Assembly: GCA_938023075.1 (NCBI GenBank)
Contig: CALHDG010000005.1
Span: 1 to 47,732 of the forward strand
DNA length: 47,732 nucleotides
Reading direction: 5' to 3'
Source of the DNA: an uncultured Chitinophagales bacterium
GTDB taxonomy: Bacteria; Bacteroidota; Bacteroidia; Chitinophagales; JAHDHT01
Shown here: positions 9,059-39,234 of the stretch, piece after piece
How the letters are laid out: each line of letters opens with the position of its first letter
How positions within the stretch are numbered: position 1 is the stretch's first letter
The notes under the pieces: model-generated
What the model was told of the DNA's origin: nothing
The model's database searches: none
What the model saw: only the letters and a program-made list of their open reading frames with translations
Program-made: the position numbers and the translations under genes

Positions 9059-9171
9059 TAGCCCCGATAGTAGTGGTTATGCTGCCCGAAGCGTTGGCAA
9101 CTGAAGCCTAGCCGCAGCATTTGAACGGATAGCGGGGAGCCCCTTTCCAAGTCGTTTTATCGTTTCGCTTC
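9059..9171 (+). repeat. Structured repeat family 2, copy A
   Basis: The element starts TAGCCCCGAT and contains the inner stem ATGCTGC/GCAGCAT, an outer stem CCCCG/CGGGG, the internal-loop strands AGTAGTGGTT and TTGAACGGATAGC, and the tail CGTTTCGCTTC. Four more copies are in the window at 9,813, 13,002, 15,301 and 39,125. See the finding on covariation. Confidence 0.65.
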
Positions 9172-9280
9172 TAATCTTACTCTTTGTATTGATACAAAAA
9201 TAAATCTACATGTGTATTTGCTATTTTTCGATATACACATTGAAATGAAAACCATTTGATTTCATAGCTTTAAAACCCCT

Positions 9281-9335
9281 ATCTCATCCTCGTTTGCAAC
9301 GAGAATGCTCAAGAAGTGCCTTTGTAATGCACAAA
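9281..9335. repeat. Double-hairpin intergenic repeat, copy 2
   Basis: CCTCGTTTGCAACGAGAATG followed by GTGCCTTTGTAATGCAC repeats the layout at 8,966-9,030. Both hairpins are weaker here. Confidence 0.4.
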
Positions 9336-9371
9336 AAATAGCCGGCTAACGAAGGAGCGAATTAACCAATC

Positions 9372-9812
9372 TAGCCCCGATTTCTAAACCAAGAGCATTA
9401 AAGTGCATTGGGTAGTTTAACAGCTAAGTGTTGTATTTCGAATGGAAAAATTCGCCATTCAAAATTGGGTGTTCGATATTCGATATTTTTTGGTTGAGCA
9501 TTTAATGAATAACGAATATCGATTAACGAGTAATGAATGTTGAATTATTTTCAATGTATAAATAAATGACATTCAATATGCCGAAAGACACTTAGGCTAC
9601 CCGTCTAACACCGGACAAAAACCGTCAATCTGAGAAGATGCTGAACAAAGTGAAGTAGCTTGCTCAGAATCTGTAAGATTGAAACAGCGTATCGGTTATG
9701 CTAACTATGGTCGAAGTGGTTGGGGGATACTGAGCATTTATTCCACTTCGCTCCATAAATCTCAGTATGACGCGGGTGTCCGGGCTTAGACGGGTTGCCG
9801 ACACTTAGATAG
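9372..9812 (+). repeat. 229-bp direct repeat, copy 1, split by a MITE
   Basis: Apart from the insertion at 9,595-9,799, this segment matches 15,072-15,300 along its length with scattered differences, including TGTTCGATATTCGATATTTT and AATGACATTCAATATG. Both copies begin TAGCCCCGAT and run straight into a family-2 structured repeat (copies B and D). The interior is very AT-rich with no reading frame. Confidence 0.7.
9595..9799 (+). mobile_element. MITE family 1 (205 bp) with 8-bp target-site duplication
   Basis: The terminal inverted repeats are GGCTACCCGTCTAA on the left and GGCAACCCGTCTAA on the reverse of the right end; they extend to 23 bp with three mismatches. The element is flanked on both sides by GACACTTA (9587-9594 and 9800-9807). 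The homologous site at 15,287-15,294 is unoccupied. The interior is partly palindromic (GTCAATCTGAGA ... complement of GTCATACTGAGA) and has no coding capacity. GG-starting ends with an 8-bp duplication would fit mobilisation by an ISL3-type transposase, but no transposase gene is in the window. Confidence 0.8.
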
Positions 9813-9930
9813 AATTGTAGCGGTTATGCTGCTTGAAGTGCACCATTTTGAAGCGTTGGGGTGTATGGCAGCATTTGAGCGGAAAGCGGAACGGGTGATA
9901 TTATAATGCTAAATCGTTTCGCTTCAAAAA
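9813..9930 (+). repeat. Structured repeat family 2, copy B
   Basis: It has the same core as copy A: AGCGGTTATGCTGC ... GGCAGCATTTGAGCGGAAAG, ending CGTTTCGCTTC followed by A-runs. The apical loop is longer than in copy A. It directly follows the MITE-split direct repeat. Confidence 0.6.
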
Positions 9931-9934
9931 ACAT

Positions 9935-10344
9935 CAAAAAAAAATGTACCGTACTTTATTGTTTAGGAATGCTACAAAAATAAATCTACATTTCTGTCTT
10001 TGCCATTTTTTCCCGAAGCTTCGGGATTGAAAAGCCTCGTCTTAGCCCCACTATGATTATGTTTTTCTCCTCGTCAGTCAAAAAATGACTTTGACATAAA
10101 AAGTAGATTTATTTTCTCCTCATATCCTTAGATATACTTGTCCAAAATTTTGGTTTATTATTGGTCTCCAAGCGTTGTGTTTGAAACTCACCAAAATAAT
10201 TCTCAAATTGTTAGGTCACCTTTAATAATCAAATTGGCATAGTACTTTTTAGTTCGATTGAATATGAATTTGTAATAACATATATTTTATATACAGCTAA
10301 ACTATCTGATACCAAAGATTTTTAGTAAGGTTATAAAAGTACGG
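9935..10344. other. Gene-free gap with partial repeat copies
   Basis: About 410 bases without a gene. The part at 9,965-10,070 (GCTACAAAAATAAATCTACA ... AAGCCTCGTCTTAGC) is a partial copy of the half-element at 19,618-19,703 and of the centre of the fold-back family 4. The short palindrome CCCGAAGCTTCGGG is at about 10,014-10,027. I see no reading frame in the remaining AT-rich sequence. Confidence 0.4.
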
Positions 10345-12684
10345 CTACTTTATAATCAATTTATAATTATATATTTGGTTATGCATATTTACGGTATAAA
10401 AATACATACCTGCTAGCAAATTAAAACTACGGGTATTTAACTGAATTTCTGTAGTTTCATTTTGCTGTACTGTTCCTTCAAATATTAAGCCTAAATTTTG
10501 CCCTTTCAAGCTCCATAAATTAATGGTTGCTTTGCCAGATTGTTTAGCCGATAGATACAAGGTAGTAATACCATCTGCGGGCACCGGATTGGGATAATTA
10601 TATATATTGGGTGTATTAATTATATAATTTAATTCGCTTATCACTTCTTTTTCAAAACTTTTTAATTGTTCTTCTATCTCAAAATTTGTATTATTACTAT
10701 TAAGTCTGTAACCATTAAATGGCATAAAGTCTAAACCCCATGCGGTATTGTTTATGGTGTTATTTTTTGAGCCTTCAATAAAATCTAAAGCTACGGCAGG
10801 GTCGTGTTCGTCCTCAACAAAATCTAAATCAAAATTATTTTCATCGCCAAATTTACCTCCAGGTGGTATGCCAGCGTTTCTAAATAAATTGCTACCGGTA
10901 TCCATTAATGAGGGAACATCATTTATTGAAGTATGATAGTTACCTAAAAAATGTCCTATTTCATGCGAAGCGATATTTCCAACAATGGTGGCTACTAAAT
11001 TTTCTTTGCTTTCTCCTTCGGCAATAGGTACTGAGTTTATAGAATCATTGGCATCTTGTAAGGAATCAAGCGGTTCACTCAAACCGTCTAATAGCACAAA
11101 TGCTAAGTCATCTAAACTATAATTACCTACATCAACAATGGTTGCCCTGCCTATCGTGTTTATGCCAGCTTCTTCTTTTGAACCTCCAACAATTAGCCTG
11201 CTGTATGGTATTTGGCAAGATTCTAAAAATTTAGGAATGGTGTTGCCTAAAAAGGTACTGCCAAAATCACTTATTATAATAATATTAGAATTTGGATTGA
11301 CGTTTGAAACTAAGATGTCTTTAAAATTTTCTTTAACTACCTGTGTTATTTTATAGGCTAAATGCGTTCTGTTTCTTTTGGTGTTTTCGAAACCCCAATT
11401 TTCCATATAGGCACTTAAAGGCGACAGGTTACGTATTTTTAATTCTTCTTCTGTAAAATTATCGAAGCCCTCTAAAAATTGCGACTCGGTATACTCTGCC
11501 CCGGTAAAATCTAAATATACTATTTGTTTTTGTCCTTTATTTATTTCTGACCCTGGCCTCGATACCACCACTTCGGCATTATATGCCCCCACTATAGCAG
11601 AGGTGTAACTAAAAGTATATTTACCTGTTTCTGTTGCAATGTAAGATAAATACATATCTACGCCTCTTCTTTTTGGTAATGGCGAATCAGCAGCAAATGC
11701 GATAGTAGCAAAACCATCGTGTCCTATTAAAAATTCATTGGCAGGTCCAAAAAGTTTCACTTCCTCTATAGGTCCTTCAATTCCCATCGCAATTACATCA
11801 CCTTTTTTTACATCTATTGAATAATGATCAATATCATTAAGCGGTTCATTGCTAATAAAAGTAATATTAAATGAATAAGGTCCTTCGTTTAGGGAAGGCT
11901 CTCTAAGTTCCGGATTTTCTGGATTTAAAAAAAAAGATAAGGTTGAATTTGGAACCGGCGAAAAAGGAGTAGAAGGCAACTCAACACTATAAGCACCAAT
12001 TGTTAAGTAATATATTCCATCTTCGGGTGCCACAAATTTTAACGATGCAATGTTTGCATTGCCAACAGTTTCAGCAACTACAAACGAACTAAAAGCGCTT
12101 AATGGTACTCCTAAAAATAAAGGGTCGTTTGGATGGATGATAAAAATATTTGGATTTATTAAGTTTTCTTCATCATCTGCTATTACCTCAATATCTAACA
12201 TTTGTCCTTCTTTTAAAGATATGGCATAATAGTCGTGGTCTCCAAAACCGGTCTGCGCAAACGAATTAGCTCCATCTCCAATAAAACCTGTTCCGGTTAT
12301 TATTTCGGAAGTTTCTGGTAAATTTAAGTCGGTTGCTGTAGAAATTGTTCCGTTATCAAAATTTGGTGCTTCCTCTAACATACCTAAATCTCTAATTGGT
12401 GTTTCTGGCACAGCTGCAATATTAAAACTACCATTAATGGTAGCTTTACCGGTTATATTGTTACTGTTTAAATTTTCAATAAATATTGCTGTTTGTGGTG
12501 TATCGTTAGTTTTTTCAAAATCCGTTTCTCCTTCTTCAATAGTAATTTCTTCATTTAAAGAAACGGTAGTAGTTTGAGCACTAACTTTTACAAAAAACAA
12601 CAGGCAGCAAGCAATAGCTATATTTTTTATTTGAATAAGAGCGAAATTATTATTATCCATCTTATATAAATTAATAATTTTCAT
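10345..12684 (-). CDS. Secreted metzincin-type zinc protease with PPC domains and T9SS sorting signal
   Basis: Exported 779-residue protease. A signal peptide (core IAIACCLLFFV, ending VSAQ) is followed by two pre-peptidase C-terminal (PPC)-like beta domains at about 130-226 (GDHDYYAISLKEGQ ... DGIYYLTIGAY) and 275-365 (DIDHYSIDVKKGD ... TGKYTFSYTSA). The catalytic domain spans about 385-660 and carries HEIGHFLGNYH: H574, H578 and H584 bind zinc and E575 is the catalytic base. SLMDTGS about 20 residues later supplies the Met-turn, placing it among the metzincins (M10/M12/M43 relatives); the exact family is not clear. Residues about 693-779 are a type A sorting domain (YNYPNPVPADG ... GMYFYTV), so it should cross the outer membrane by T9SS and be anchored or released. 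An alternative start at residue 9 (12,660) is equally plausible. A full consensus promoter lies upstream. Confidence 0.87.
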   Translation of the reverse strand: MKIINLYKMDNNNFALIQIKNIAIACCLLFFVKVSAQTTTVSLNEEITIEEGETDFEKTNDTPQTAIFIENLNSNNITGKATINGSFNIAAVPETPIRDLGMLEEAPNFDNGTISTATDLNLPETSEIITGTGFIGDGANSFAQTGFGDHDYYAISLKEGQMLDIEVIADDEENLINPNIFIIHPNDPLFLGVPLSAFSSFVVAETVGNANIASLKFVAPEDGIYYLTIGAYSVELPSTPFSPVPNSTLSFFLNPENPELREPSLNEGPYSFNITFISNEPLNDIDHYSIDVKKGDVIAMGIEGPIEEVKLFGPANEFLIGHDGFATIAFAADSPLPKRRGVDMYLSYIATETGKYTFSYTSAIVGAYNAEVVVSRPGSEINKGQKQIVYLDFTGAEYTESQFLEGFDNFTEEELKIRNLSPLSAYMENWGFENTKRNRTHLAYKITQVVKENFKDILVSNVNPNSNIIIISDFGSTFLGNTIPKFLESCQIPYSRLIVGGSKEEAGINTIGRATIVDVGNYSLDDLAFVLLDGLSEPLDSLQDANDSINSVPIAEGESKENLVATIVGNIASHEIGHFLGNYHTSINDVPSLMDTGSNLFRNAGIPPGGKFGDENNFDLDFVEDEHDPAVALDFIEGSKNNTINNTAWGLDFMPFNGYRLNSNNTNFEIEEQLKSFEKEVISELNYIINTPNIYNYPNPVPADGITTLYLSAKQSGKATINLWSLKGQNLGLIFEGTVQQNETTEIQLNTRSFNLLAGMYFYTVNMHNQIYNYKLIIK

Positions 12685-12745
12685 GTAAAATATTTTATAT
12701 TAAGTTGATGAAGAAAAAATCTAAATTGAGTTGAGCTTAGTAATA

Positions 12746-12774
12746 CAAAAGTAAATTTGCATTACTATACCAAA
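12746..12774 (-). promoter_or_regulatory. Consensus Bacteroidota promoter for the PPC-protease gene
   Basis: On the minus strand TTTG (12,774-12,771) is followed after 17 nt by TACTTTTG (12,753-12,746), matching the -33 and -7 boxes. The transcript would have a leader of about 55 nt before the ATG at 12,684. Confidence 0.6.
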
Positions 12775-12946
12775 TTTGATTACAAATATAACACAAAATT
12801 GGTTTTTGTGGGTAGCTACTAAATCAAGTTGAGGGCACATGTTTTTCTTTAAAAATACTCGTTGTACCGAAGTTGGAGGATGCGTGGGGCTTTTACTTCA
12901 ATCACCTCAAAATAAATTCAAAATATTAGTGTCAGTTTTTATACGC

Positions 12947-13208
12947 AAATTGGAACAAGTTTATCTAAACTATACAATAGTTGACACATTTTTGATATTT
13001 TTTGAAGCGAACCTATTATGCTTTATAGTAACACCCGTCCCGCTTTCCGCTCAAATGCCATTTGCCAACGCTGCAAAAGCCACTCAAAATGGCATAACCG
13101 CTGCAATCGGGGCTAGTTTATAAACTTTGGTTCTTCGTAGCAAGAAAAAAACAGAGACAATCAAAAACAAAAAGTAACAACCACTTTGATAAACTTGTCC
13201 AAATTGGT
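12947..13208. repeat. Inverted-repeat-bounded element, family 7, copy 1
   Basis: The left end AATTGGAACAAGTTTATC and the reverse of the right end CCAATTTGGACAAGTTTATC form terminal inverted repeats. TAGTTGACACATTTTTG follows the left end. The same ends bound 34,665-34,872. The interior carries an inverted copy of structured repeat family 2 (13,002-13,116) instead of a gene. No target-site duplication is clear. Confidence 0.45.
13002..13116 (-). repeat. Structured repeat family 2, copy C (inverted)
   Basis: On the minus strand: GCCCCGATTGCAGCGG, then ATGCCATTT pairing with AAATGGCAT, then TTGAGCGGAAAGCGGGA, ending GTTCGCTTCA. The inner stem differs from the other copies on both strands but still pairs perfectly over nine base pairs. 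Confidence 0.65.
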
Positions 13209-13321
13209 ATTACTATTTAGTTTGTAGGTTTTTTCAGTACGGCTATATGTAAAATAGCGATGCATGCTACCTATATTTTGTAAGCACGCATCACTATTAT
13301 TTTATTAATTACTTATAATTC

Positions 13322-13474
13322 TATACTTGTTTAGGTTGAGTTTTGGGCTTTTTTCCTTCTGGATTTTGTGCTTAGGCGATTCAAAAAATCTCTTCATAGT
13401 GGAGCTATTTTTTGAAGAAGTATAAGTGCAAAAGCCTTAGTCAAAAAGTTTAAAATTCAGCCTAATCAAGTATA
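13322..13474 (-). repeat. MITE-like element family 3, copy 2 (uninterrupted, 153 bp)
   Basis: The ends are TATACTTGTTTAGGTTGAG on the plus strand and TATACTTGATTAGGCTGAA on the reverse of the other end, giving terminal inverted repeats of about 24 bp with few mismatches. It ends 14 nt from the stop of the galactose-binding-like gene and would be part of its 3' region. It gives the uninterrupted form of the element at 5,508-5,988. Confidence 0.6.
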
Positions 13475-13487
13475 TCTCAAACAAAAA

Positions 13488-14300
13488 TTATTTGTCTGTT
13501 TTGTTGAAACGTTTTGTAAATACTGTGCCATCTTCCAATACTACATTTACCATATACACACCCGCATTTAAATGATCTACTTGAACTTGAACCGTATTAT
13601 CTAACTCGGCTATATTTTGTGGTTCGCTAACTATTCTGCCAGCTAAATCGTGAATTTGAAGAGTACCTGTACTTGTGGCAGGGCTTTCAAACGCAACAGT
13701 AAGCATTTCGTTTGCCGGATTTGGATAAACTGTCATCTCTTGAATATCATTTACGTTACCAAGTTTGCCTCTTCCAATTGGGACAAGTTGCTCAAAAATA
13801 ACACGAGTTACTGCCCAATTAGCATCACTTCCTCCATCATCATAAAAGCGCAGAGTTAATCGTCCATCTCTAACCTGCACATTAAATCTTACAGTTTTAA
13901 ATTGCTTAGCATTAGTAGTTATATTACCTCGAGTAACCGCATTTGCACCGGTTTCTGCTCTCACACGCATTCTGTCGTGACGAAAATTTCTGTCTCCAAA
14001 TGTTACCCGAACATTATAGGTTCCATTTTTCACCCTTGCTTCGAAGGTGCGTGGTTTACTGCTTTGAATTAAGTCTCTGTTTGCTTCGTTAACTCCAGAA
14101 GTACGTCCTCGGTCTCTGCTACTAAGCGAGGTTCGGTTAGTCCATCTAAAATTATTGTTACTAGTCCTCTCAGTTATTTTAGTATGACCTCGAGTCAACT
14201 GTGAATTTGAGGTTCCAAAATCAAGAAAACCAGAAGTTGGTTGACCATAAGCTAATAAGCCAACGAACATAGCTGATAATAATAGTGTAAAAATTCTCAT
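13488..14300 (-). CDS. Secreted galactose-binding-like domain protein with T9SS sorting signal
   Basis: Exported 270-residue protein from the ATG at 14,300, which begins a good signal peptide (MRIFTLLLSAMFVGLLAYGQ). The frame is open 27 codons further up, but those residues are not signal-like. Residues about 25-180 are one beta-sandwich domain with FLDFG, SSRDRGRTSGVNEANRDLI, F.ARV.NG.YNVRVTFGD, DGRLTLRFYDDGG and NWAVTRV. This is the layout of the N-terminal domain of rhamnogalacturonan-esterase-type SGNH hydrolases and CBM35/malectin-like modules, but no catalytic domain follows. The last 75 residues are a type A T9SS sorting domain (MTVYPNPANE ... GVYMVNV). The domain is homologous to residues 764-913 of the beta-helix protein at 880-5,430. 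It is probably a free surface lectin; the ligand is unknown. Confidence 0.8.
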   Translation of the reverse strand: MRIFTLLLSAMFVGLLAYGQPTSGFLDFGTSNSQLTRGHTKITERTSNNNFRWTNRTSLSSRDRGRTSGVNEANRDLIQSSKPRTFEARVKNGTYNVRVTFGDRNFRHDRMRVRAETGANAVTRGNITTNAKQFKTVRFNVQVRDGRLTLRFYDDGGSDANWAVTRVIFEQLVPIGRGKLGNVNDIQEMTVYPNPANEMLTVAFESPATSTGTLQIHDLAGRIVSEPQNIAELDNTVQVQVDHLNAGVYMVNVVLEDGTVFTKRFNKTDK

Positions 14301-14596
14301 TTTAAAATTTTTTAAGTTAAATAAATTAAAAATATATAGGTATATTTGTCCTATTTGTTGTTTGAAATTAGTTTTAAACATTGCTGTACCAATTATTAAG
14401 AGTACTGAACAAGTTTATTCAATTGGGCATTATAGTACGAGGTAAACATATAATTTGACTAATTGAGTGTGGCATAATCTATTTTTAGTGAGTATTAATC
14501 TATCAAATTAATTACTCAAATTTAGGTGTTAATAGAATAAGAAACTGACAGTTGAACGACAAATACACGATTACTGTAATTTAGCCTCTTGCTTAA
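14301..14596. other. Gene-free upstream region
   Basis: Contains the leader of the galactose-binding-like gene, including an in-frame open stretch back to 14,381 that I do not count as coding. I see no clean TAnnTTTG box, only the near match TAAACTTG on the minus strand at about 14,408. Confidence 0.3.
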
Positions 14597-14757
14597 GGAA
14601 TGATGAAAAAATAAATGTTCGAATTTTAGCAAAGAGATTTTTTGATGTACAAGTTTAAAAAACGCAGGCTTAGTGGTACTAAGACGAGTATTTTAATGAC
14701 GTAGACCGGAAAATCTCAAAGGTAAAAATGGACAGTTATTTTTGAATTATTCATATT
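14597..14757. repeat. Fold-back (palindromic) element, family 4
   Basis: The imperfect arms run from GGAATGATGAAAAAATAAAT to the complement of GAATAATTCAAAAATAACTG around the centre GGCTTAGTGGTACTAAGACG. It matches 19,701-19,861 almost throughout, in opposite orientation. Its right end supplies the stop codon of the gene fragment at 14,747-14,911. Confidence 0.6.
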
Positions 14758-14911
14758 GAGAATTTTTGTTTTTTTTACCAGACTCTCTAATTTTAATTTT
14801 GTCAATATTTGTATAATCTACATCTAAGTTGAATTCATATTTTGATTCTTCATTATCCTCAATCCAAATTTTATATATTTTGACAGAATCTTTTCTTTCT
14901 TTTTTTGAAAA
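14747..14911 (-). pseudogene. Truncated C-terminal gene fragment next to a fold-back element
   Basis: The minus strand is open from 14,911 to a TAA at 14,747 and reads coding-like sequence (DSVKIYKIWIEDNEESKYEF and onwards to IDKIKIRES). A TGA closes the frame immediately upstream and there is no start codon, so the 5' part is missing. The last residues and the stop lie at the end of the family-4 element, so insertion may also have replaced the native C-terminus. I do not recognise the family. Confidence 0.4.
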
Positions 14912-15071
14912 TCACAGTACAAAAGTTCCAATTCAAGAGTTGGAAAATTTATTTAGTCTACATTATATTCTTAATATGGCAATCTGACAAAAATTATAAC
15001 TACAATTCCAAAGTAGAGGAATAAATAGTCAAATACGATTTGTCTACTACAACGCAGCGAACCTGGCAATT

Positions 15072-15300
15072 TAGCCCCGATTGCCAAGCCAACAGCTTTA
15101 AAGTGCATTGGGTTGTTTAGCAGCTAAGAGTAGTTTCTCGAATCGAAAAATTCGTCATTCAAAATTCGGTGTTCGATATTCGATATTTTTTGGTTGACCA
15201 TTTAATGAATAACGAATATCGATTAACGAATAATGAATGTTGAATTATTTTTAATGTATAAACAAATGACATTCAATATGGCGAAAGGCACTTAGATAGA
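15072..15300 (+). repeat. 229-bp direct repeat, copy 2 (empty site)
   Basis: It matches 9,372-9,594 plus 9,800-9,812 and lacks the 205-bp MITE. At 15,287-15,294 it has GGCACTTA where the other copy has GACACTTA on each side of the MITE, so it records the pre-insertion state. Confidence 0.7.
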
Positions 15301-15403
15301 ATTGCAGCGGTTATGTTGCTTGCAGCAAAGCCTTGTAGCCAAGCGCAACATTTGAGCGGAAAGCAGGACTACCCTTAGTGATGAACCCAACTAGTTTCGC
15401 TTC
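15301..15403 (+). repeat. Structured repeat family 2, copy D
   Basis: GCAGCGGTTATGTTGC pairs with GCAACAT (ATGTTGC/GCAACAT), a C-G to T-A change on both arms relative to copy A, followed by TTGAGCGGAAAGCAGGA and AGTTTCGCTTCAAAAAA. Its A-run ends about 20 nt from the stop of the phospholipase-D-like gene, which is transcribed towards it. Confidence 0.65.
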
Positions 15404-15428
15404 AAAAAAAAATTTAACTGGTTATATT

Positions 15429-17642
15429 CTATTCGGCAATAACCAAAGGCATAATGGCATCTAACTGTTGGTTAAAGTGCAATTGTACAAAGTACATGCC
15501 CTTGGTCAGGTTTTTTGTTGTTAATGGAATTTGATTGGCTCCCGCAGTGGCTTTGCCGTACAGTTGCTCTATGATTTTGCCATTTACATCTACAATGTCA
15601 ATTTGATAGGCTTGTGCTTGGCCTAATTGAAATTGCAAAGTGGTTAGGGCATTACCCGGATTAGGATAAATACCAACCTCTTTGGAAACCAAATTTAGTG
15701 AGGCAATATTGGTGATCATTCCTTCATTTTCAAATAAACGGGCAACAAACTCTTGATAATATTGATTGGCAACATTGGCATCATGAATGATTAAAATATT
15801 TTCGTCGTTGCGGGTTTGTGCACTCGTGCTCCAATTGTGCGAACCGGTTAAAATGGTTGGATCGGAATCGGGATGATTAGGATCTACTATTAGATATTTA
15901 TGATGAAAGATGTTGTTTTGCTGATTTAACACAACGGCTTCTTCTGGTGATGCTTCATCTAAAATGCTGTAAGCAAAACCGCCCGCACTAGAAGTGTCGT
16001 TAATAATACCATAGGCATTTATTTGGTTTTCTTCAATCAAACCTCGAATGTCGTATGAAATGCCGAAGCGTGTATAAGATAGTAAGGCAACATATAAATT
16101 AAAATCGGTTGTAGCAATGGTTTGTTTAATTACATTTTCTACATCATCGCTTGGGCTAAAATGTACCGATACATTTTTACCACCCACTTTTAACGCCGTT
16201 GGGGTATTTGCCTTTTTTTCTGAACCGAATAATTCATCAATAAACATTTCTTCAAATTCTTTGGTATATACTTTTGCCAGGCTTTGATCTTGTACAATGA
16301 TAATATTGTTTGGATCGACATTCAGTTGATTATCCGTCCAATTAGTTGAACCGGTTAATAGGTAAGATTTGTTGGGGTCTTCGTGATGGGCATCTACTAC
16401 AATAAATTTGTTGTGCATAATGCCATCTTCTTGGCTTTGCGAAGGCGGGCTAATTTTCAAGTTGCCGTCTCCAACATCAATGCTGGCTGCTCTAAAATCT
16501 TGTACCCCACTATCAATTAACATTCTAACGGTTATTCCTTTAGCGTGTGCATCATTAATTGCTGAAATAATATTATTTTTATCATCCAAATTATATATAG
16601 CAATATCTAAAGTAGACTCTGCTTTGTTGATTAGATCAATAACTATTTGGGGGAAGTTATCGCTGTAGTTGGCTTCTTGTTCGGTTGCTTTGGTAACATC
16701 AACTGGATTATTGAAATATACTTCGATAGCACCGGAAGAGGCTGACTCGGTGACCATATAGTAAGCCGTAGAGGATGAAACTTCTCCTTCGCTACCTGCA
16801 GATTCAGCTGTAACTTCATAAATTTCTGCCGGTTTTAAGCCATCTAAAGTAAGGCAGTGATCTGTTTTCAATTCCTCATCACTTACTTCTACGGTTGCTC
16901 CATCTTCATCGGTACATTTAATTACGGTAGTACCAGGGTTTTGTGTGGTAAAGCAAACTTCAAAACCGGTTTGGCTAATATTTTTTTGCGTTAAGGCCGA
17001 AGCAATAACTGGTTTGCCGGTGGCAAAAACAATATCCATTACAGAGCGGGGTTGCAATTGATAAGTATCTTGATATTGCCCCATAACGCCTATTAAGGTG
17101 ATGGGGTCGGCTGGTATCGGCGTACCTCCAATATTGGTGTTGCCCCAAATACGCACTTCTTTTTCAGTTTGTCCATCAGAAATTACATAATTAGCACTGC
17201 CGCCTGCATCAAAAGTACCATTGTCATTAAAGGTAATGTTCTCAAATTTTAACAATTGTCCTTCATTCGTTTCACTAAAGCCAGCTGATAAACTTTCGAC
17301 CACTTTAGGTGCTGGTATTTCGGCATCTTCTCTGATAATCTCTAACGAACTTAAATCGACCAACTCTAACAAATTATTAAATTGCGTAAGCGTACCTTTT
17401 ACTTTAATTTCATAACCCGGTTCGGCTATGGCAATATCATCACTAAAAATAGCTAAGCCGCCGGTTTCATCTTGAATGTATCGCAAACGGTCATTAAATT
17501 CAGCTGAACAGGTAACTACCCCTTGTACGGTTACAATTGATCCTTCGCCCTCTGCACGAGCATCTTTAATAGATGTTTGAGCCAGACAATATTGCGCTAC
17601 TAACAAACAGCATACTATGTATAATGTGTATTGAGTTCTCAT
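15429..17642 (-). CDS. Secreted OB-fold / phospholipase D-family nuclease-like protein with T9SS sorting signal
   Basis: Exported 737-residue protein. After the signal peptide (MRTQYTLYIVCCLLVAQYC, ending LAQ) come a lamin-tail/YhcR-type OB-fold region at about 22-205 (VTVQGVVTCSAEF ... YIQDETGGLAIF) and a fibronectin III-like domain (about 208-300). Two phospholipase D half-domains follow. The first has H410-x-K412-x4-D417 and then LLTGSTNWTDN; the second has H580-x-K582-x4-D587 and then ILTGSHNWSTS. Two HKD motifs form one active site that attacks phosphodiester bonds through a phosphohistidine, and with an OB-fold domain nucleic acid is a likelier substrate than lipid (inference). The C-terminus is a type A sorting domain (VGIYPNPGNALTT ... 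GMYFVQL), so it should act outside the cell, for instance in scavenging DNA. Confidence 0.85.
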   Translation of the reverse strand: MRTQYTLYIVCCLLVAQYCLAQTSIKDARAEGEGSIVTVQGVVTCSAEFNDRLRYIQDETGGLAIFSDDIAIAEPGYEIKVKGTLTQFNNLLELVDLSSLEIIREDAEIPAPKVVESLSAGFSETNEGQLLKFENITFNDNGTFDAGGSANYVISDGQTEKEVRIWGNTNIGGTPIPADPITLIGVMGQYQDTYQLQPRSVMDIVFATGKPVIASALTQKNISQTGFEVCFTTQNPGTTVIKCTDEDGATVEVSDEELKTDHCLTLDGLKPAEIYEVTAESAGSEGEVSSSTAYYMVTESASSGAIEVYFNNPVDVTKATEQEANYSDNFPQIVIDLINKAESTLDIAIYNLDDKNNIISAINDAHAKGITVRMLIDSGVQDFRAASIDVGDGNLKISPPSQSQEDGIMHNKFIVVDAHHEDPNKSYLLTGSTNWTDNQLNVDPNNIIIVQDQSLAKVYTKEFEEMFIDELFGSEKKANTPTALKVGGKNVSVHFSPSDDVENVIKQTIATTDFNLYVALLSYTRFGISYDIRGLIEENQINAYGIINDTSSAGGFAYSILDEASPEEAVVLNQQNNIFHHKYLIVDPNHPDSDPTILTGSHNWSTSAQTRNDENILIIHDANVANQYYQEFVARLFENEGMITNIASLNLVSKEVGIYPNPGNALTTLQFQLGQAQAYQIDIVDVNGKIIEQLYGKATAGANQIPLTTKNLTKGMYFVQLHFNQQLDAIMPLVIAE

Positions 17643-17683
17643 ACTTTAATTTTTTTTGGCTTGGGGCTGGTTTTTAACGACGC

Positions 17684-19335: not shown

Positions 19336-19368
19336 ATTGTATGCCTTTGTTTTGTTGTAAAATTAATA

Positions 19369-19591
19369 ACTTAAGTTTCGGCAGTAGTATTTATTTCATA
19401 ATAACTTGAATATAAATTATTTATGGAAATTGAAGTACTCTATAAGGTTAAGTAAACTTAATTCAACATATAAAGCATAAAATCATCCAAGTGAACCTAT
19501 TAACTTGTTGTTGTAAAGTGGTTAAGCATTTGTTGACACATTGGAACAAGTTCCATTGGAATAGCAATTACTTTACTACCGAAACTTAAGT
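19369..19591 (+). mobile_element. MITE family 2, copy 1 (223 bp, 5-bp target-site duplication)
   Basis: Perfect terminal inverted repeat ACTTAAGTTTCGG at both ends, extending imperfectly to about 18 bp, flanked by TAATA at 19,364-19,368 and 19,592-19,596. The copy at 47,127-47,346 matches along its whole length. The interior has a palindrome GGAACAAGTTCC and no coding capacity. It lies 33 bp upstream of the LRR gene's ATG. Confidence 0.85.
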
Positions 19592-19617
19592 TAATACGCT
19601 CCATCAACTTTCTTTTA

Positions 19618-19703
19618 GTAATGCTACAAAAATAAATCTACATTTCTGTCTTTGCCATTTTTCGATATACTTTGTTGAAATGCCTCGTCTTAGCACCACT
19701 AAG
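19618..19703. repeat. Half-copy repeat related to fold-back family 4
   Basis: AATGCTACAAAAATAAATCTACATTTCTGTCTTTGCCAT and onward to GCCTCGTCTTAGCACCACTAAGG, shared with 9,968-10,070 and partly with 9,190-9,240. It abuts a full fold-back element. Confidence 0.4.
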
Positions 19704-19940
19704 GAATAATTCAAAAATAACTGTCCGTTTTTACCTTTGAGGTTTTCCGATCTACTTCATTAAAAATACTCGGCTTAGCACCGCTAAGCCGGCGTTTTTT
19801 AACTTGTCCATCAAAAAATCTCTTTGCTAAAATTTGGACATTTATTTTTTCTTCATTCCTAATCCTTCGTTTTTCGCCTTGTCTATCAAAAAATTGCTTT
19901 ATCATAGCTGGTAAATTTATTTTCTCATCATTCCTTAAAA
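19701..19940. repeat. Fold-back family 4: one full copy plus a half copy
   Basis: 19,701-19,861 is an inverted near-copy of 14,597-14,757 with centre GGCTTAGCACCGCTAAGCC. 19,862-19,940 repeats the outer arm once more (CGCCTTGTCTATCAAAAAAT ... CTCATCATTCCTT). An open frame of 78 codons through here on the minus strand is the translation of the repeats and has an internally repeated sequence, so I do not call it a gene. Confidence 0.55.
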
Positions 19941-30539: not shown

Positions 30540-30649
30540 TATTACTTTCATAATAGTCTCAAAAAAATTGAGACTTAAGTTTCTTCATTTTACCTCAAAT
30601 GAAACGAATTTAATGCATTGTGGATTAAAAAATATTATAACTGTTTGAG

Positions 30650-30699: not shown

Positions 30700-30821
30700 T
30701 AAGGTATCTGATAAAAGAGGCATCTTTATATTAGACTTTACCGCGCATATTTTAAATATGATTTTTGACTTTTAAGGTCAAATTTTTATATTAATTTTAT
30801 TTAATCAACTAATATTTAAAC

Positions 30822-33800: not shown

Positions 33801-34601
33801 GGTTTAAGTTTTACTTTAAACTTGCCACCTACTTATCAAAATTTCAAAATAAATAATATTTACCCTCCATTAACTGAAGAAGAAGTTTTTATACATAATA
33901 AAAGTGGAGTAATTTATGTAAGTATCAACCGACAAAGTGGTGGAGCTCAAAAGACCAGGATTCTTGCTCAGCGTATAAAAAGCGGAGCACCAATTTTAAG
34001 AACGGGAGGTTGTTTGGAATTAGCTGATGCTAGCTCTGACTGTTTTGATATTCCGGTTATCAATATTTCTGGTGGTACAGAAACCATTACTGATAATTTT
34101 GCAAATTTCGAATCTTCATCACTACTATTCGGATCTGAATGTGATGAGGGTGGTACTTTTAAAAGGTCTAAAGAAAATTTAAATGATGAAATACTTAATG
34201 TTGCCTTACAACTTAAAAATCAAACTTGTTTAAACTTAGGTGCCTTAGAGGTTGAAATACTTGATGATTTAGAAACGGGCACTATTCCATATCAATATTA
34301 TTTATATAATCAAAATGGGGAGGAAATTAGAAGTGAATTGCAATCATTTAGTCCCAAATATGAATTTTACAATTTAGAAGAAGGTTTATATAAACTTAGG
34401 GTAGAAGATAGTGCAAATAGACATTTCATTAAAAATTTTGAAGTGAAATTTACTACAGGAATGAATGGAAGTACGTGTTGTCCTGAAAAATTAATTATTC
34501 CTCCTGGCGAGCATACAGGTGATTATAATGCGATGAGCCGAATAAGTTTAAAAAGTGGAACTCGAATAAATAGCGGCAGGATAGGTATATGTGATAATTA
34601 G
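30822..34601 (+). CDS. Secreted leucine-rich-repeat / thermolysin-like (M4) metalloprotease fusion
   Basis: Exported 1259-residue protein (signal peptide RIIFTLSLLTSLLLYNQLSN, ending AQ). Residues about 25-650 hold three plant-type LRR modules (L..L.L..N.L.G.IP.EIG), each capped by a Cys-rich piece such as CRQTDSIALLSIYQSL and NNFD.SW.DFC. The protease spans about 690-955 with the thermolysin set: H766-E767-LM-H770 (VGHELMHFVI), third ligand E791 in GALNESFADIFGE, and the downstream H861 in AGIHTNNGVQNYWFYLL. The usual secreted M4 propeptide (FTP/PepSY) is missing; LRRs stand in its place, so activation and targeting must differ. The C-terminal 300 residues are beta-rich and end SRISLKSGTRINSGR-IGICDN, with no PNP motif, so the sorting signal is not type A. 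Its LRR modules closely match those of the gene at 36,563. Confidence 0.85.
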   Translation: MNRIIFTLSLLTSLLLYNQLSNAQCHLADWTALKALYESTDGDNWVNNEGWVTMIANQTSPPANCDLSSPYGISLNNAGRVNALILLANNLQGNMPTEIRLLSELEDLLLNLNALTGSIPTEIGQLDKLAILVLEYNQLTGNIPTEIGNLTNLVQLHLSENNLSGEIPDEIGNLINLENLTLYKNQLTGSIPAELANLNNLTQLILAYNQLSGCYASELTPLCNQVSPDFLVVPPYPVDAISEANNFDTSWADFCATANGICAPTNNCRQTDSIALLSIYQSLKPNSGWDFSTTIDLWPGVSINESGCVDTLDLSEKDLTGMIPIQIGDFKEITYLDLNENSITGLIPHEIGNLTNLRYLSLAGNSITGLLPESLPRLNNLNRLYLSNNNISGCYPNQYINFYYQLYSKSNTNAAISDGNNFDAPWRDFCITGIGSCPIPPSICRETDSLALTNIYQSLKPTHTWNLSYPVSHWPGVRIINENGCVDKLDLSEHGLWGVIPPEIGDLSEITFLRMVENSIKGPLPDEIGNLNTLKVLSLSDNNMTGPVPKSLRNLINMEGLYLSDNQFTEVPSDIGNFSNLVNLYLSQNELNGCYPAEFAKLCNQLESNTNFAISSNNNFDASWEDFCQTNAGACLQSPSTVSTTYSGNQNPTVIINENGEYVLKNNDVQVFNFSTCSLTDIENCEPIKGFNDWAANEVLWAIEKGVQYITDNFGMSLPRVNCLVNSNHNSKPNSSFYNIDTKALIFGMGDGIERNTMTAPDIVGHELMHFVIANLNDDFCIYGECGALNESFADIFGEVLEYISRGSNDWVFGSEVLVANNSGIRSLSNPNDVTMQDTLPDTYLGNYWINQDNSALAGIHTNNGVQNYWFYLLANGGTGTNDHGLNYNVQGIGIEKAAEITFANLFNNLTPAATYRDAMYGSVNVAKELHGENSNEVQQTINAWEAVGLTALQTNPISWRVVNYEEGTPIGRELPIQFDLEIDSLGQDISADGLSFTLNLPPTYQNFKINNIYPPLTEEEVFIHNKSGVIYVSINRQSGGAQKTRILAQRIKSGAPILRTGGCLELADASSDCFDIPVINISGGTETITDNFANFESSSLLFGSECDEGGTFKRSKENLNDEILNVALQLKNQTCLNLGALEVEILDDLETGTIPYQYYLYNQNGEEIRSELQSFSPKYEFYNLEEGLYKLRVEDSANRHFIKNFEVKFTTGMNGSTCCPEKLIIPPGEHTGDYNAMSRISLKSGTRINSGRIGICDN

Positions 34602-34617
34602 TTATGTGTTTATATTT

Positions 34618-34668
34618 CAGAATTTATAACATGATTATGATCATGTTATAAATTCTGAACGTTTTTGG
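34618..34668 (+). terminator. Hairpin with an 18-bp perfect stem after the LRR-protease gene
   Basis: CAGAATTTATAACATGAT (34,618-34,635) and its exact complement (34,640-34,657) enclose the loop TATG. A short T-run (GTTTTTGG) starts 4 nt later. It lies 17 nt after the stop; it may be a terminator or an mRNA 3'-end stabiliser. Confidence 0.6.
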
Positions 34669-34872
34669 CAAGTTTATCAAAATAGTTGACATTTGCACAC
34701 TTAGCTACTTGCATCATTAAAAGAGTACAAAACAAAAGGTAGACAGGACTAATTCCCCTTCACGAGTGAAGGGGTGGGCTTTGCAAAGCAAAGGTCGGGG
34801 TAGTTATTATTTCAGCACCTTCAAAAAAACTAAAAGTGTCAACTACTTTTGCTATCAGATAAACTTGTCAAG
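34665..34872. repeat. Inverted-repeat-bounded element, family 7, copy 2
   Basis: Left end TTGGCAAGTTTATC then TAGTTGACATTT; reverse of the right end TTGACAAGTTTATC then TAGTTGACACTTT. The same ends bound 12,947-13,208. This copy carries the double hairpin of 34,749-34,806 in its interior. Confidence 0.45.
34749..34806 (+). repeat. Double-hairpin repeat family 6, copy 1
   Basis: CCCCTTCACGAGTGAAGGGG followed by TGGG, CTTTGCAAAGCAAAG and GTCGGGGTAGTT. The second copy at 46,728-46,788 changes stem bases on both arms (CAC/GTG to CAA/TTG) and keeps the flanks. Confidence 0.6.
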
Positions 34873-34887
34873 TTTTTTCAAAAAAAA

Positions 34888-36411
34888 TTAACACTCGTGT
34901 AAGGCTTTCATTTTGTTGATCAACCACTGCTTTTGTTTAACAGTTTCACTTTTAAGTATAATCTTTTTAATATCAGTAAAAGCCTTTTTCATTTTTTGAT
35001 CTTTGCGATTTTTTATCGACAAATCGTGCTTAAACCTATACAGTTTTTTAAAAGCCAAGATAAAGTTTAAGTGAGCAGTCTTTTCTGCTTGAGTCAATCT
35101 ATTATTATTACAAAAATACACTTTTATATTATCAATTATTTTTTGAGTTGTAATTTCGTAATACTGGTCAATTTCATAAAAACACTTTAACCTTGAAATT
35201 CTAATCCCAATATCGTGTGTGTTATCTATTTTTAATACTTTGTTGAAGTGTATTAAAGCTTCGGAATAATTTTGCTGGTTAAATTCTATAATACCTAAGT
35301 TATATTGTAATACAGAATTCCTGACATCTTTTGAAACATATTCTATATAATAGGATAAAATATCTTTTGCCCATTTAAATGCTCTAACTCTACAAGCTAT
35401 GGTTATGATATTCTTTAAAGATCTAACCGCCAATACATTTCTGCTTAGCAAAATATTAAGTTGGTGCATTTTCTGGTAGATACTAAATAGTGGTGTATAA
35501 AAATTTAAATTTCCTTTTGCAGTTTGGTCAATACAATAATTTGTGAGATTGGTATAAAAGGTTTTCAAAATTCTATTTGGAATTATATCTTGTAATTGAT
35601 TGATTTTATCAAATAAAAGTTGAAAGGTATCCTCATCACTTTTTTCAATCAAATTGATATTTAACAGATACAATTGTATAAGCGGATTGCGTTTATACTG
35701 GTCTAACTCAATTAAACTTTGTGTCGCTTTATACGGATCAAAATCAAACTGTCTATTCGTAATTCTTTTTAATAAGGTGACTTTTGTTAAATGAAATTTT
35801 AGCTTTTCAATTATGTATTTGGTATCTAAATAGTATTGTAACCTATCATAATTGTCTTCTTTAGTCATCATATTACTCAAGTACAATACTTCTGCTTTAA
35901 ACAACTGTAAATTATATTGAGCAGCATGATATTCGATGCCTCTTTTTGGATTAGCTTCTAATTCCTTTTGCTTGGTTTTGTATCTTCGATTATACAATAC
36001 CATTTGCCTACGATTAATCAGTTGAGGAAATAATAACTCGTATTGTACAGATTCCTTTTGCTTCAACTGTTCCACCATCAAAAAACTTTCTGCTAAATTC
36101 AGCAAATGATTCATCGCTTTGTTCAACTCTTTTTTTTGAACGGTATTTATGGATTGTTGACTTTTAGCTTTCCCAAACACATCCTGATAAATTTTAAATT
36201 GAATGGTATCTGAAAAACTGTCAGCATTTAAAGCATATTGTTTGAGCTTCTTAAATAACAAACACAACTTCTTGTTGGTATTGTGATAATTGCAATTGAT
36301 ATAATCATTAAAATTATTCAATTCTTGCTCCGTAAATGTTTTAAGCAATTCTAACGAAACAATTAATCTCGTTTTTTGAGATTTATGTTGAGAGGTTCCA
36401 ACTTTTTCCAC
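34888..36411 (-). CDS. Cytoplasmic TPR-like helical protein of unknown function, GTG start
   Basis: 507-residue all-helical protein without a signal peptide or membrane segment, basic and rich in Lys, Asn, Gln and Leu. It opens with FTEQELNNFNDYINC after a short basic leader and has TPR-like hairpins, the clearest at about 373-405 (VLQYNLGIIEFNQQNYSEALIHFNKVLKID). I recall similar helical proteins with this N-terminal pattern occurring in several copies in Saprospiraceae-type genomes, without known function. The start is set by the sequence: a TAA precedes the GTG at 36,411 directly and the first in-frame ATG is about 90 codons later. It is divergent from the SdiA-regulated-like/LRR gene with a shared 150-bp upstream region. 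Confidence 0.72.
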   Translation of the reverse strand: MEKVGTSQHKSQKTRLIVSLELLKTFTEQELNNFNDYINCNYHNTNKKLCLLFKKLKQYALNADSFSDTIQFKIYQDVFGKAKSQQSINTVQKKELNKAMNHLLNLAESFLMVEQLKQKESVQYELLFPQLINRRQMVLYNRRYKTKQKELEANPKRGIEYHAAQYNLQLFKAEVLYLSNMMTKEDNYDRLQYYLDTKYIIEKLKFHLTKVTLLKRITNRQFDFDPYKATQSLIELDQYKRNPLIQLYLLNINLIEKSDEDTFQLLFDKINQLQDIIPNRILKTFYTNLTNYCIDQTAKGNLNFYTPLFSIYQKMHQLNILLSRNVLAVRSLKNIITIACRVRAFKWAKDILSYYIEYVSKDVRNSVLQYNLGIIEFNQQNYSEALIHFNKVLKIDNTHDIGIRISRLKCFYEIDQYYEITTQKIIDNIKVYFCNNNRLTQAEKTAHLNFILAFKKLYRFKHDLSIKNRKDQKMKKAFTDIKKIILKSETVKQKQWLINKMKALHEC

Positions 36412-36499
36412 TTATATCCAACGTATTATACAAATTTTATTGTAGCATTTAATAACGAAATAGCGCAAATTTTAAAGCGTTTCATTTTTAAAGTAGACC

Positions 36500-36507
36500 T
36501 ACTTTTG
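36500..36507 (+). promoter_or_regulatory. -7 promoter box (TACTTTTG)
   Basis: TACTTTTG matches TAnnTTTG, 56 nt before the chosen ATG at 36,563. It lies close before the alternative ATG at 36,515, which would then be almost leaderless and is the less likely start. Confidence 0.45.
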
Positions 36508-36562
36508 GAACGAAATGAAGCCCAAGGCTTCGTATTATTTAATCAATCAAAAATTTATACAG

Positions 36563-38986
36563 ATGAAAAATTTAAATCTGAAAGCAAAAGGATTAAAACT
36601 TAGTTTGATCTTATGTTCACTATTTTTTTTAAAAACAACAAATAGTCAAAGTATTCCTATTAACCAATATAAACAGAAAGGTGAAAAAATCACCTATCCA
36701 TTTATTAATGACGACTTGTCAGGAATTACTTATAGCAACAAAACTAAAACCTTGTTTATGGTTCAAAACGACCCTCCCAACATTTATGAAGTTGATCTGG
36801 CAGGTAACTTCATTAGAAAAATTAAGCTTACTGGTTTTGATGATACAGAAGGCATTAGCCATATTGCTGAAACACAATTTGCCATAGCAGAAGAAAAAAA
36901 AGGAAGAATCGTGTTTTTTGATATTTTATCAAACACAAGCGAAATCAATTTACAAGAGAATTATGCGATTCAACTACCCAATCCAGAAAATGATTCTTGG
37001 GGTTTGAACGACGGTTTAGAAGGTGTAAGTTATAACCCAAGTGATCAGAAAATATACACGGTAAAAGAAAAAGATAATAAGGGCTTTTTTGCATTTGATT
37101 TACCAGACCGGTTTCCATCAAATTTAACCAATGCAGACATTATAATACCTTGCGATGTAAATAGTGCTGGCTTTCCTTTTCTTAAAGATTTAGCGGGTGT
37201 TTATCATCAGGGCAATTCTATTTTAATGTTAAGTGAGGATAACAAAGTACTTGTTCAAATAGATGAAAATTGCAATGAAATTAGCAGGTTGTCATTGGCA
37301 GCAATGGAACAACCAGAAGGTATAACAATTAGTGATGAAGGATTTTTATATGTAGCCGGCGAAAAAAATGAGTTATTTATATTTGAACCGCCTTCTTGCC
37401 GATACACCGATTCTTTGGCTTTAACCAACATCTATCAATCTTTAAATGGCAATTTTTGGAATTTGTCAAACCCTATCACAACTTGGGAAGGTGTGTCCCT
37501 TAATGAAAATGGCTGTGTAGATATGTTGCGATTATCTGATAAAGGTTTATCAGGAAGGCTTCCATCTTCAATTGGAGATTTGCGTGAAGTGGTTTTTATA
37601 GAAATGGCAAATAATGCTATTACCGGATCTATACCTAAAGAAATAGGTCAACTTAACAAACTTAGTTATTTAGCATTTACTGGAAATGATATAGATGCTT
37701 TGCCAACAGCCATAGGAGATTTATCGAACTTAACAGTTCTTGAAATATCCAATAATCGAATAACGGAATTACCCGCATCATTAGGCAAGTTATCTAAACT
37801 GATCTCTTTTGTGGCTAGTAATAATCAAATTAAAAACATTCCAGAATCTATTGGCGACCTCAATAATCTTAAGGGATTAGTGTTGCAAAACAACCAATTA
37901 GATGAACTACCTACTTCTTTGAGCAATTTAAGTAATTTAATTCTTTTAAAAATTCAGTCTAATCAATTCAATGGTTGTTATAATGACTACTTTAGTCAGT
38001 TGTGTTTTCAGTTGCCACGATATACCAGCTTTAATCAGTTTATAAGTGAGGGCAACAATTTTGATGCAACTTGGGAAGACTTTTGTGCTTATGGATTTGG
38101 CGGTTGTGATTTGATTGAACAACCTTGTCGACAAACAGATTCAATTGCTTTAGCCACCATTTTTCAATCTTTAAATTATAGATATGTACACAATCTGGAA
38201 AAGCCAGTAAACCAATGGCCCGGTGTAAGGTTAAATGAAAATGGATGTGTAGACAGACTTGATTTATCGGAAAAAAGCTTAACCGGAGAAATTCCAGCCG
38301 CTATTGGAGACTTAGCTGAAGTTACCTTTATCAAAATGGTAGAAAATAGTATCACCGGTCAAATTCCTGAGGCGATTGGCAATTTAGAAAATCTTAAAAT
38401 ATTGAGTCTTGGAGATAATGAAATGAGCGGACCCATCCCTGAATCAATAGGTAGACTAACCAATTTAGATGGGTTATATTTATCCTCAAACAGGTTTACA
38501 GAACTACCGGCTGGTATAGGAAACTTAGAACAGTTAACTAACCTTTACTTAGGTGGCAATCAACTTAGTGGCTGTTATCCTGATGAATTTAACCAACTTT
38601 GTAACCGGCTTTCAAGCAATTCTAATAGAAACTTTGCCATTAGTTCAGGTAATAATTTTGACATTAGCTGGGAGGAGTTTTGTGCTGGTGCAACTTGTAC
38701 TTTAAACAAACAACCTCAACAGCAAGATTTTGAAAGCAACAACTACCCTAATCCATTTTCCACGCAAACTACTATAATTTATAATTTGTTAGAAGAAGAT
38801 GAAATTACGCTATCCATTTATGATGCTAAAGGAAAGCAGGTAGCGCAGTTGTTAAATAATGAAAAGCAGCAAGCAGGAAAACACACCAGCATTTTTGAAA
38901 GCACCAACTTACCATCTGGCGTATATTATTATCATATACAAAGTAGTACAAAAAATGAAGTAAATAAAATAATGTTGATTAAGTAG
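36563..38986 (+). CDS. Secreted SdiA-regulated-like propeller / LRR protein with T9SS sorting signal
   Basis: Exported 807-residue protein from the ATG at 36,563, which starts a good signal peptide (LKLSLILCSLFFLKTTNSQ); the frame is open to 36,515 but the extra 16 residues are not signal-like. Residues about 28-275 form a propeller like the SdiA-regulated / esterase-like phytase group (DLSGITYSNKTKTLFMVQND, DDTEGISH, GLEGVSYN, EQPEGITISDEG). Two LRR modules follow (about 278-520 and 525-730) with caps CRYTDSLALTNIYQSL and CRQTDSIALATIFQSL and terminal NNFD.(T/S)WE(D/E)FC. The final about 70 residues are a type A sorting domain (NNYPNPFSTQT ... GVYYYHIQ). The LRR modules are close relatives of modules 2 and 3 of the LRR-protease, implying duplication and domain shuffling between neighbours. 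Ligand unknown. Confidence 0.83.
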   Translation: MKNLNLKAKGLKLSLILCSLFFLKTTNSQSIPINQYKQKGEKITYPFINDDLSGITYSNKTKTLFMVQNDPPNIYEVDLAGNFIRKIKLTGFDDTEGISHIAETQFAIAEEKKGRIVFFDILSNTSEINLQENYAIQLPNPENDSWGLNDGLEGVSYNPSDQKIYTVKEKDNKGFFAFDLPDRFPSNLTNADIIIPCDVNSAGFPFLKDLAGVYHQGNSILMLSEDNKVLVQIDENCNEISRLSLAAMEQPEGITISDEGFLYVAGEKNELFIFEPPSCRYTDSLALTNIYQSLNGNFWNLSNPITTWEGVSLNENGCVDMLRLSDKGLSGRLPSSIGDLREVVFIEMANNAITGSIPKEIGQLNKLSYLAFTGNDIDALPTAIGDLSNLTVLEISNNRITELPASLGKLSKLISFVASNNQIKNIPESIGDLNNLKGLVLQNNQLDELPTSLSNLSNLILLKIQSNQFNGCYNDYFSQLCFQLPRYTSFNQFISEGNNFDATWEDFCAYGFGGCDLIEQPCRQTDSIALATIFQSLNYRYVHNLEKPVNQWPGVRLNENGCVDRLDLSEKSLTGEIPAAIGDLAEVTFIKMVENSITGQIPEAIGNLENLKILSLGDNEMSGPIPESIGRLTNLDGLYLSSNRFTELPAGIGNLEQLTNLYLGGNQLSGCYPDEFNQLCNRLSSNSNRNFAISSGNNFDISWEEFCAGATCTLNKQPQQQDFESNNYPNPFSTQTTIIYNLLEEDEITLSIYDAKGKQVAQLLNNEKQQAGKHTSIFESTNLPSGVYYYHIQSSTKNEVNKIMLIK

Positions 38987-39007
38987 ATTGTTGAAAAGCA
39001 GACTTTG

Positions 39008-39041
39008 AATACCAAATGCCTTAAAGGTGTTTGGTATTTTT
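39008..39041 (+). terminator. Intrinsic terminator after the SdiA-regulated-like/LRR gene
   Basis: AATACCAAA (39,008-39,016) pairs with TTTGGTATT (39,030-39,038), with an inner CCTTAAAGG pairing, then a T-run. Confidence 0.75.
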
Positions 39042-39124
39042 ACATTTCGTGATTAATTGGGTTTAATTCTAACTTCCCAAATGAACCATCAATACCGAAA
39101 TGTCGGCAGCAGAAACGTCCCTAA

Positions 39125-39234
39125 CCCGATTGCAGCGGTTATACTATTTTGCCGCTTAACAAATGAAGCCAAGCAATAGCATTTGAGCGGAAAGCAGGAG
39201 GGGTGTTTTTATAAAAAAAAAGTTTCGCTTCAAA
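39125..39234 (+). repeat. Structured repeat family 2, copy E
   Basis: CCCGATTGCAGCGGTT, then ATACTATT pairing with AATAGCAT (one A/C mismatch, CTATT/AATAG intact), then TTGAGCGGAAAGCAGGAGGG and AGTTTCGCTTCAAAAAA. As with copy D, the A-run ends close (about 25 nt) to the stop codon of a gene transcribed towards it. Confidence 0.65.

Follow-up and report, generated by a model that had tools for sequence, protein, structure and literature searches.

A conserved Flavo-1 fold in the middle of a miniature transposable element of a Chitinophagales bacterium

Five copies of an intergenic repeat in a 47,732-nt stretch of contig CALHDG010000005.1 (assembly GCA_938023075.1, an uncultured Chitinophagales bacterium), which we call the window, are assigned by their sequence to the Flavo-1 family (Rfam RF01705). 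In the genome of the window, the Flavo-1 fold is the middle of a miniature inverted-repeat transposable element (MITE) of about 246-250 bp. The fold is kept independently of the ends of this element, and we consider it likely that it is recognised as a single strand. The original prediction had described the repeats as conserved and folded, with internal loops that stay fixed while the paired bases vary. This description is supported within the genome, in orthologous copies from Flavobacterium, and in a longer form of the element; what the prediction missed was the known family and the location inside a transposable element. Beyond what Rfam holds, we describe the MITE context in this genome, a 3-bp base helix, and a long form of about 150 nt with a conserved tip.

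The window copies and the element that encloses them

All five copies lie at the predicted positions, as found by reading the window and by a profile search, whose matches cover 9027-9179, 9814-9942, 12989-13156 (minus strand), 15301-15418 and 39125-39247. The inner stem arms were read as before (ATGCTGC/GCAGCAT, ATGTTGC/GCAACAT, ATGCCATTT/AAATGGCAT and CTATT/AATAG), with a single A.C mismatch adjoining the CTATT/AATAG arm of copy 5. The tail GTTTCGCTTC with its A-run and the spacing of 20-25 nt to the stop codons at 15429 and 39261 are likewise as first noted. The supposedly shared head TAGCCCCGAT is directly joined to the stem in copies 1 and 3, but not in copies 2, 4 and 5. For the copies at 9,813 and 15,301 (copies 2 and 4), the head is found upstream, at ~9374 and ~15073; it does not stand beside the stem because an inserted repeat, D2, lies exactly between them. 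The head of copy 5 is CTAACCCGAT, which is informative for the base helix described below. The features are listed here.

9027..9179, plus strand: copy 1, with left arm, Flavo-1 core (RF01705 match 9056-9143, 31.2 bits) and tail; Rfam match and profile
9349..9384, plus strand: left half of copy 2 (arm and head, ending TAGCCCCGATT) ahead of the inserted D2 repeat; sequence reading
9385-9595: D2 repeat in copy 2
9814..9942, plus strand: right half of copy 2 (stem, tail GTTTCGCTTC, A-run); profile
12946..12953: target site duplication CAAATTGG, first copy, flanking the copy-3 MITE
12954..13199, minus strand: complete MITE with Flavo-1 core (copy 3), 246 bp, ends GACAAGTTTATC / GATAAACTTGT; both ends and duplication found
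12955-12968 and 13185-13198: end motifs of the copy-3 MITE; end-motif search
13032..13118, minus strand: Flavo-1 (RF01705) match within the copy-3 MITE, 38.6 bits; Rfam match
13200..13207: target site duplication CAAATTGG, second copy, flanking the copy-3 MITE
15036..15084, plus strand: left half of copy 4, ahead of D2; profile
15085..15300, plus strand: D2 insert, ~216 bp, between head and stem of copy 4
15301..15418, plus strand: right half of copy 4 (stem, tail); profile
39125..39247, plus strand: copy 5, with Flavo-1 core, base triple AAC, tail GTTTCGCTTC and A-run; profile
39261..39282, plus strand: right inverted end of copy 5, ending GATAAACTCGTC

The outer MITE ends of copy 1 are not recognisable. 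The right end of copy 5 encodes the final six residues, TSLSKE, and the stop codon of a 934-aa minus-strand gene (39261-42065).

The Rfam model scores copy 3 at 38.6 bits (E 8e-5) and copy 1 at 31.2 bits, slightly under its gathering score of 42, which is exceeded by at least 72 sibling copies among at least 146 matches in the same genome (150 of 1826 candidates scored). Two length classes occur there, the classic one of ~78 nt and one of 86-89 nt, to which the window copies belong. The genome was read over 2.43 Mb of its 6.12 Mb (40%), with a profile built from sibling copies and with genes called by open reading frame length only; the repeat copies are not independent of one another. The profile search returned 288 places (E <= 1e-3) in the 2.43 Mb and 0 in shuffled DNA. 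Extrapolation to the whole genome gives roughly 500-700 copies, a figure that leans high because the stretches read were partly picked around known matches.

The enclosing MITE has long imperfect inverted ends starting GACAAGTTTATC, contains no gene, and is flanked by a target duplication of ~8-9 bp; several hundred copies are present, many of them decayed. Comparison of copies inserted in other repeats with element-free copies of those repeats places the true ends ~80 nt ahead of the core and ~50 nt past the tail. The 250-nt consensus starts GACAAGTTTATCAAAGTGGTTGATACTTTC and finishes AAAGTGTCAACTACTTTATTGTTTAGATAAACTTGTC. Both ends are recognisable in 46 of 227 well-scoring copies; most of these measure 240-259 bp, and those bearing D2 ~450-490 bp. 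A flanking duplication, mostly of 7-9 bp, was found for 21 of the 46, compared with 1 of 46 mismatched controls. Copy 3 is a clear case, lying at 12954-13199 between two copies of CAAATTGG. Across the genome, the end motif (<=1 mismatch) occurs 306 times, versus 53 for the reversed control. We propose that a trans-acting transposase moved the MITE by recognising the inverted ends; the ends and the size of the duplication suggest an enzyme of the DDE type. Sibling small elements of ~180-295 bp have the same inverted ends GACAAGTTTATC around other contents without Flavo-1 (L079:3428-3720, L106:6694-6988 and L087:9964-10145).

Conservation and use of the fold

A covariation test, suggested with the original prediction, was run in a simplified R-scape-like form with a FastTree tree, per-column parsimony counts and 60 simulated alignments. 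Five helix pairs (68-96, 67-97, 69-95, 53-111 and 49-115) rise above the maximum of all 60 null simulations. The long-range pair 45-149 (E ~0.1) and the pair 58-106 (~0.18) are not significant alone in this tree-based test. Among 206 copies from the same genome, Watson-Crick pairs fill ~97 of 100 helix cells, or ~99 once the innermost pair, which is badly aligned, is excluded, and the most strongly coupled columns in the entire alignment are helix pairs. Most unpaired core columns changed 0-2 times, versus mostly 20-70 times for arm columns. Single-sequence folding is unexceptional (RNA z-scores from +1.2 to -2.3), so the support for the fold comes from covariation and not from stability. Hairpin-templated repair is an unlikely source of the covariation, because the covarying helices are 2-4 bp long and lie between conserved, non-complementary loops.

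The two ends of the fold are joined by a 3-bp base helix that is not in the Rfam model, in which the three bases preceding the hairpin foot pair with three bases downstream. The triples in the window's genome are AGC/GCT (193 copies), AAC/GTT (15) and AAA/TTT (9), with few exceptions. Orthologous Flavobacterium copies downstream of miaA supply the further combinations ACC/GGT, ACG/CGT and CGC/GCG. The linker from the hairpin to the second triple is ~30 nt in the window's genome, compared with a few nt in Flavobacterium, where GCT stands close by in 54 of 60 AGC heads.

Conservation along the element was measured in 34 copies chosen by their ends and overall length only. The mean consensus frequency is 0.996 in the head and 0.972 in the tail of the core. 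The terminal repeats follow with 0.93 and 0.88, then the arms with 0.84 and 0.78, and the apical part is lowest at 0.75. Searched with a profile of its own, the core was found 244 times, the left part 107 times and the right part 125 times, and a core lies next to 95 of the 107 left parts. Because the profiles for the left and right parts have a lower sensitivity, these counts exaggerate the difference; the consensus frequencies are unaffected. Since the core is so much better conserved than the ends of the MITE, it is selected or re-copied after insertion. The original prediction would have been undone if the repeats were the decaying ends of a transposon. A transposon does exist, but its terminal repeats are distinct from the covarying stem and decay much more than the stem does. 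The folded core has hardly changed while the other parts of the element decay, so the fold is probably still in use.

The fold could instead be a passenger, unused now, if amplification of the MITE began with several founders that already had different, internally compensated stems. Subfamilies that differ in their stems are indeed visible, and copies bearing D2 appear to have spread as units. However, the core loops are nearly constant while the arms and ends of the same copies decay, the five helix pairs exceed the tree-based null, and covariation is also present in orthologous, single-site Flavobacterium copies. This alternative is already disfavoured, and we regard it as improbable. The fold in the middle of the MITE is conserved independently of the ends, with Watson-Crick pairing kept through many double changes, base helix included. 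In the explanation that we prefer, some protein would recognise this fold in single-stranded form. The folding strand would be the one annotated by Rfam, as the excess of G.T over A.C pairs on that strand suggests.

The data fit a strand-specific single-stranded fold in either chemistry, and we leave the choice between RNA and DNA undecided, with a weak leaning towards single-stranded DNA. Against RNA, wobble pairs are almost absent from the basal helices: in Flavobacterium, 0 G.T and 1 A.C were counted in 360 cells, versus 10.8% G.T in 14 tRNAs from the same DNA. Copies are preferentially antisense to the neighbouring gene (68 antisense versus 30 sense in tandem gene contexts of the window's genome), and the stop-facing placement of the tail described below likewise counts against RNA. 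In the transcriptome of F. psychrophilum, Flavo-1 hits are indistinctly sense or antisense, and many are untranscribed (PMC9723704). A fold acting as RNA, either as a structured transcript element or as a small RNA, with the MITE merely having spread it in this lineage, is a tentative alternative that we take seriously. It would agree with the complex conserved internal loops and the apical motif of the long form, and with the prevalence of G.T over A.C on the Rfam strand (33 versus 13 in the window's genome, ~30 versus 6 in the long form). Flavo-1 was listed as a probable RNA, not cis-regulatory, by Weinberg et al. in 2010 (PMC2864571). It has been in Rfam since that year, filed as Gene; sRNA, and the literature that we found gives it no function.

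Several observations weigh against our overall explanation. By the criteria used, 25 of the 46 two-ended copies show no duplication, and a search of the 2.43 Mb (40% of the genome) for an autonomous element that shares these ends found none; a 3.2 kb candidate on contig C90 proved to be ordinary sequence containing a sibling MITE. The upper stem of the long form is rich in G.U pairs, a point in favour of RNA. Flavobacterium copies show no such inverted ends, and mobility there therefore rests on presence and absence between species only; these are clear, but the flanks are too diverged to give exact insertion ends.

Of 183 intergenic copies, 127 have the tail side of the element towards a stop codon (127 versus 56), and convergent gaps are enriched among copies with both arms. 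Such a placement would suit transcription terminators or 3'-end stabilisers of the neighbouring genes. We hold this role to be most improbable, as the stems are not unusually stable and a T-run precedes the hairpin and an A-run follows it on either strand, the reverse of an intrinsic terminator, which this order rules out. Stop codons provided by the MITE end could also produce the orientation bias; this is true for copy 5, but for only 5 of 39 stop-facing right ends. A marker of the replication strand was rejected as well, orientations being mixed within short stretches.

Mobilisation by a Y1 (HUH) transposase has more specific parallels. In this reading, Flavo-1 resembles repetitive extragenic palindromic (REP) elements or IS200/IS605 ends, and the base triple would serve as the guide, with its downstream complement as the cleavage site. 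The parts do stand in the same order, namely triple, hairpin, linker and complementary triple, a layout that recalls the guide and cleavage-site logic of IS200/IS605 ends (PMC6006769). The window's genome holds genes for REP-associated tyrosine transposases (RAYT) and IS200, and in Bacteroidetes, RAYT subclass 2.6 has atypical flanking structures (PMC6006769). Co-occurrence, however, rejects a present-day dependence on either kind of transposase. RAYT genes are present in 23 of 45 Flavo-1 genomes versus 204 of 395 overall, so there is no association; a Y1 match is absent from 4 of 30 genomes that are nearly complete and rich in Flavo-1; and no above-noise Flavo-1 copy lies within 1.5 kb of either of the two intact RAYT genes in the window's genome (L033 and L037). 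We consider this reading very unlikely.

The long form and inserts in the repeat

Flavobacterium sequences, taken mainly from one scan of genome contigs, contain a longer version of the element. At the site downstream of miaA, 59 species have both flanks, and 25 of them carry a Flavo-1-like structure, in identical orientation throughout; about 10 of these 25 are long forms. The apical motif GCGACC-N3-GGAAGC is common to 19 long forms of 137-157 nt, most of them 151-155 nt, from several sites, and in ~1.5 Mb, 21 of its 24 occurrences fall within a Flavo-1 frame. The common fold of 18 sequences has 30 pairs, with double changes in 22. Paired cells amount to 90.6%, versus 68.3% for shuffled and 36-51% for slid alignments, and the covariation score is 0.585 versus 0.189. 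The Rfam model matches several long forms but without the apical domain. In G001, a genome of another genus in the window's own family, GCGACC..GGAAGC lies mid-element in all five of the ~148-150 nt Flavo-1 matches listed, and the motif pattern occurs 56 times versus 11 for the reversed control. It is only scattered in the window's genome (15 versus 3), which therefore carries the short form.

A bolder idea, which we offer as doubtful, is that the catalogued Flavo-1 is the worn-down core of a two-domain element of ~150 nt shared across Bacteroidota orders. Such elements would form a distinct non-autonomous mobile class, whose own fold, as single-stranded DNA or RNA, would direct mobilisation by an enzyme still to be found, and capture by the MITE would have come later in the window's lineage. 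If so, the two-domain element would comprise the base helix coupling both ends, the conserved internal loops, and the tip GCGACC-N3-GGAAGC.

Other sequences are inserted in Flavo-1. D2, a repeat of ~216-222 bp with roughly 40-50 copies, sometimes in tandem, sits at one exact point, between TAGCCCCGATT and ATTGCAGCGG; besides the two window occurrences, it was found at L138, L135 and L107. D2 and the element that bears it seem to have moved together. The D2 of copy 2 itself holds an element of 204-205 bp (9595-9799) with inverted ends GGCTACCCGTCTAA / TTAGACGGGTTGCC and an 8-9 bp duplication GACACTTA(G), and the same element occurs at the identical point of another D2 (L087:6468). At L031:60-1905 (contig C89), a gene that by eye resembles an IS110/IS1111 transposase comes after a left half of Flavo-1, again at the GATT point, and an IS200 tnpA comes next. 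The Flavo-1 head looks like an insertion hot spot. The apical loops of Flavobacterium copies (L212, L215, L224 and L244) hold other repeat-like sequences, such as CCCTTCGACTGCGCTCAGGGTGACA, as if the loop were tolerant of insertions. The window also contains intergenic inverted repeats of a second family (AAAAACGCAGTCTTAGTAGCACTAAGACGAGGCTTTT and related sequences, at 5819-5877, 10027-10085, 14593-14755 and 19617-19938) and a ~230 bp intergenic repeat of ~90% identity, whose copies at 19363-19595 and 47121-47350 lie 27.8 kb apart.

Comparison with known mobile repeats

Flavo-1, presumed to be a small RNA since 2010, gains defined ends, a base helix and a longer form with a conserved tip, together with evidence that it is mobile in one lineage and with orthologues in named Flavobacterium species, as at the site downstream of miaA. 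Defined sequences and compensatory mutants now make its binding partner and nucleic-acid form accessible to experiment. The window copies have the core of the Rfam family (head GAT.G.AGCGG, tail AGCGGA.AGCGGG, variable inner stem). The Rfam model, in contrast, has neither the base helix nor the ~150 nt form with its apical motif, and Rfam does not mention a MITE; the kind found in the window has a linker of ~30 nt ahead of the closing triple.

The enclosing element resembles other MITEs, non-autonomous elements of DDE transposons, in its inverted ends, 8-9 bp duplication, length of ~250 bp, lack of a gene, hundreds of copies, and siblings with common ends. Here, however, the interior is better conserved than the ends, and it is a covarying fold that occurs elsewhere without the MITE. 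By analogy, Flavo-1 may work like an IS200/IS605-type end, given the shared order of guide-like triple, hairpin, linker and complementary site. As far as tested, it is not a member of the REP/RAYT or IS200/IS605 systems: it is independent of a resident Y1 transposase and is enclosed here in DDE-type inverted ends.

ERIC, BOX and bcr1 are mobile intergenic repeats of other bacteria, ~100-150 bp long, with a conserved fold and many copies, presumably moved in trans. By their description, they are like Flavo-1 in being mobile, structured, multi-copy intergenic repeats; they belong to unrelated organisms, and the ERIC duplication is TA, unlike the 8-9 bp found here. Flavo-1 in this genome belongs among such structured, mobile intergenic repeats, with a larger form of ~150 nt in its relatives.

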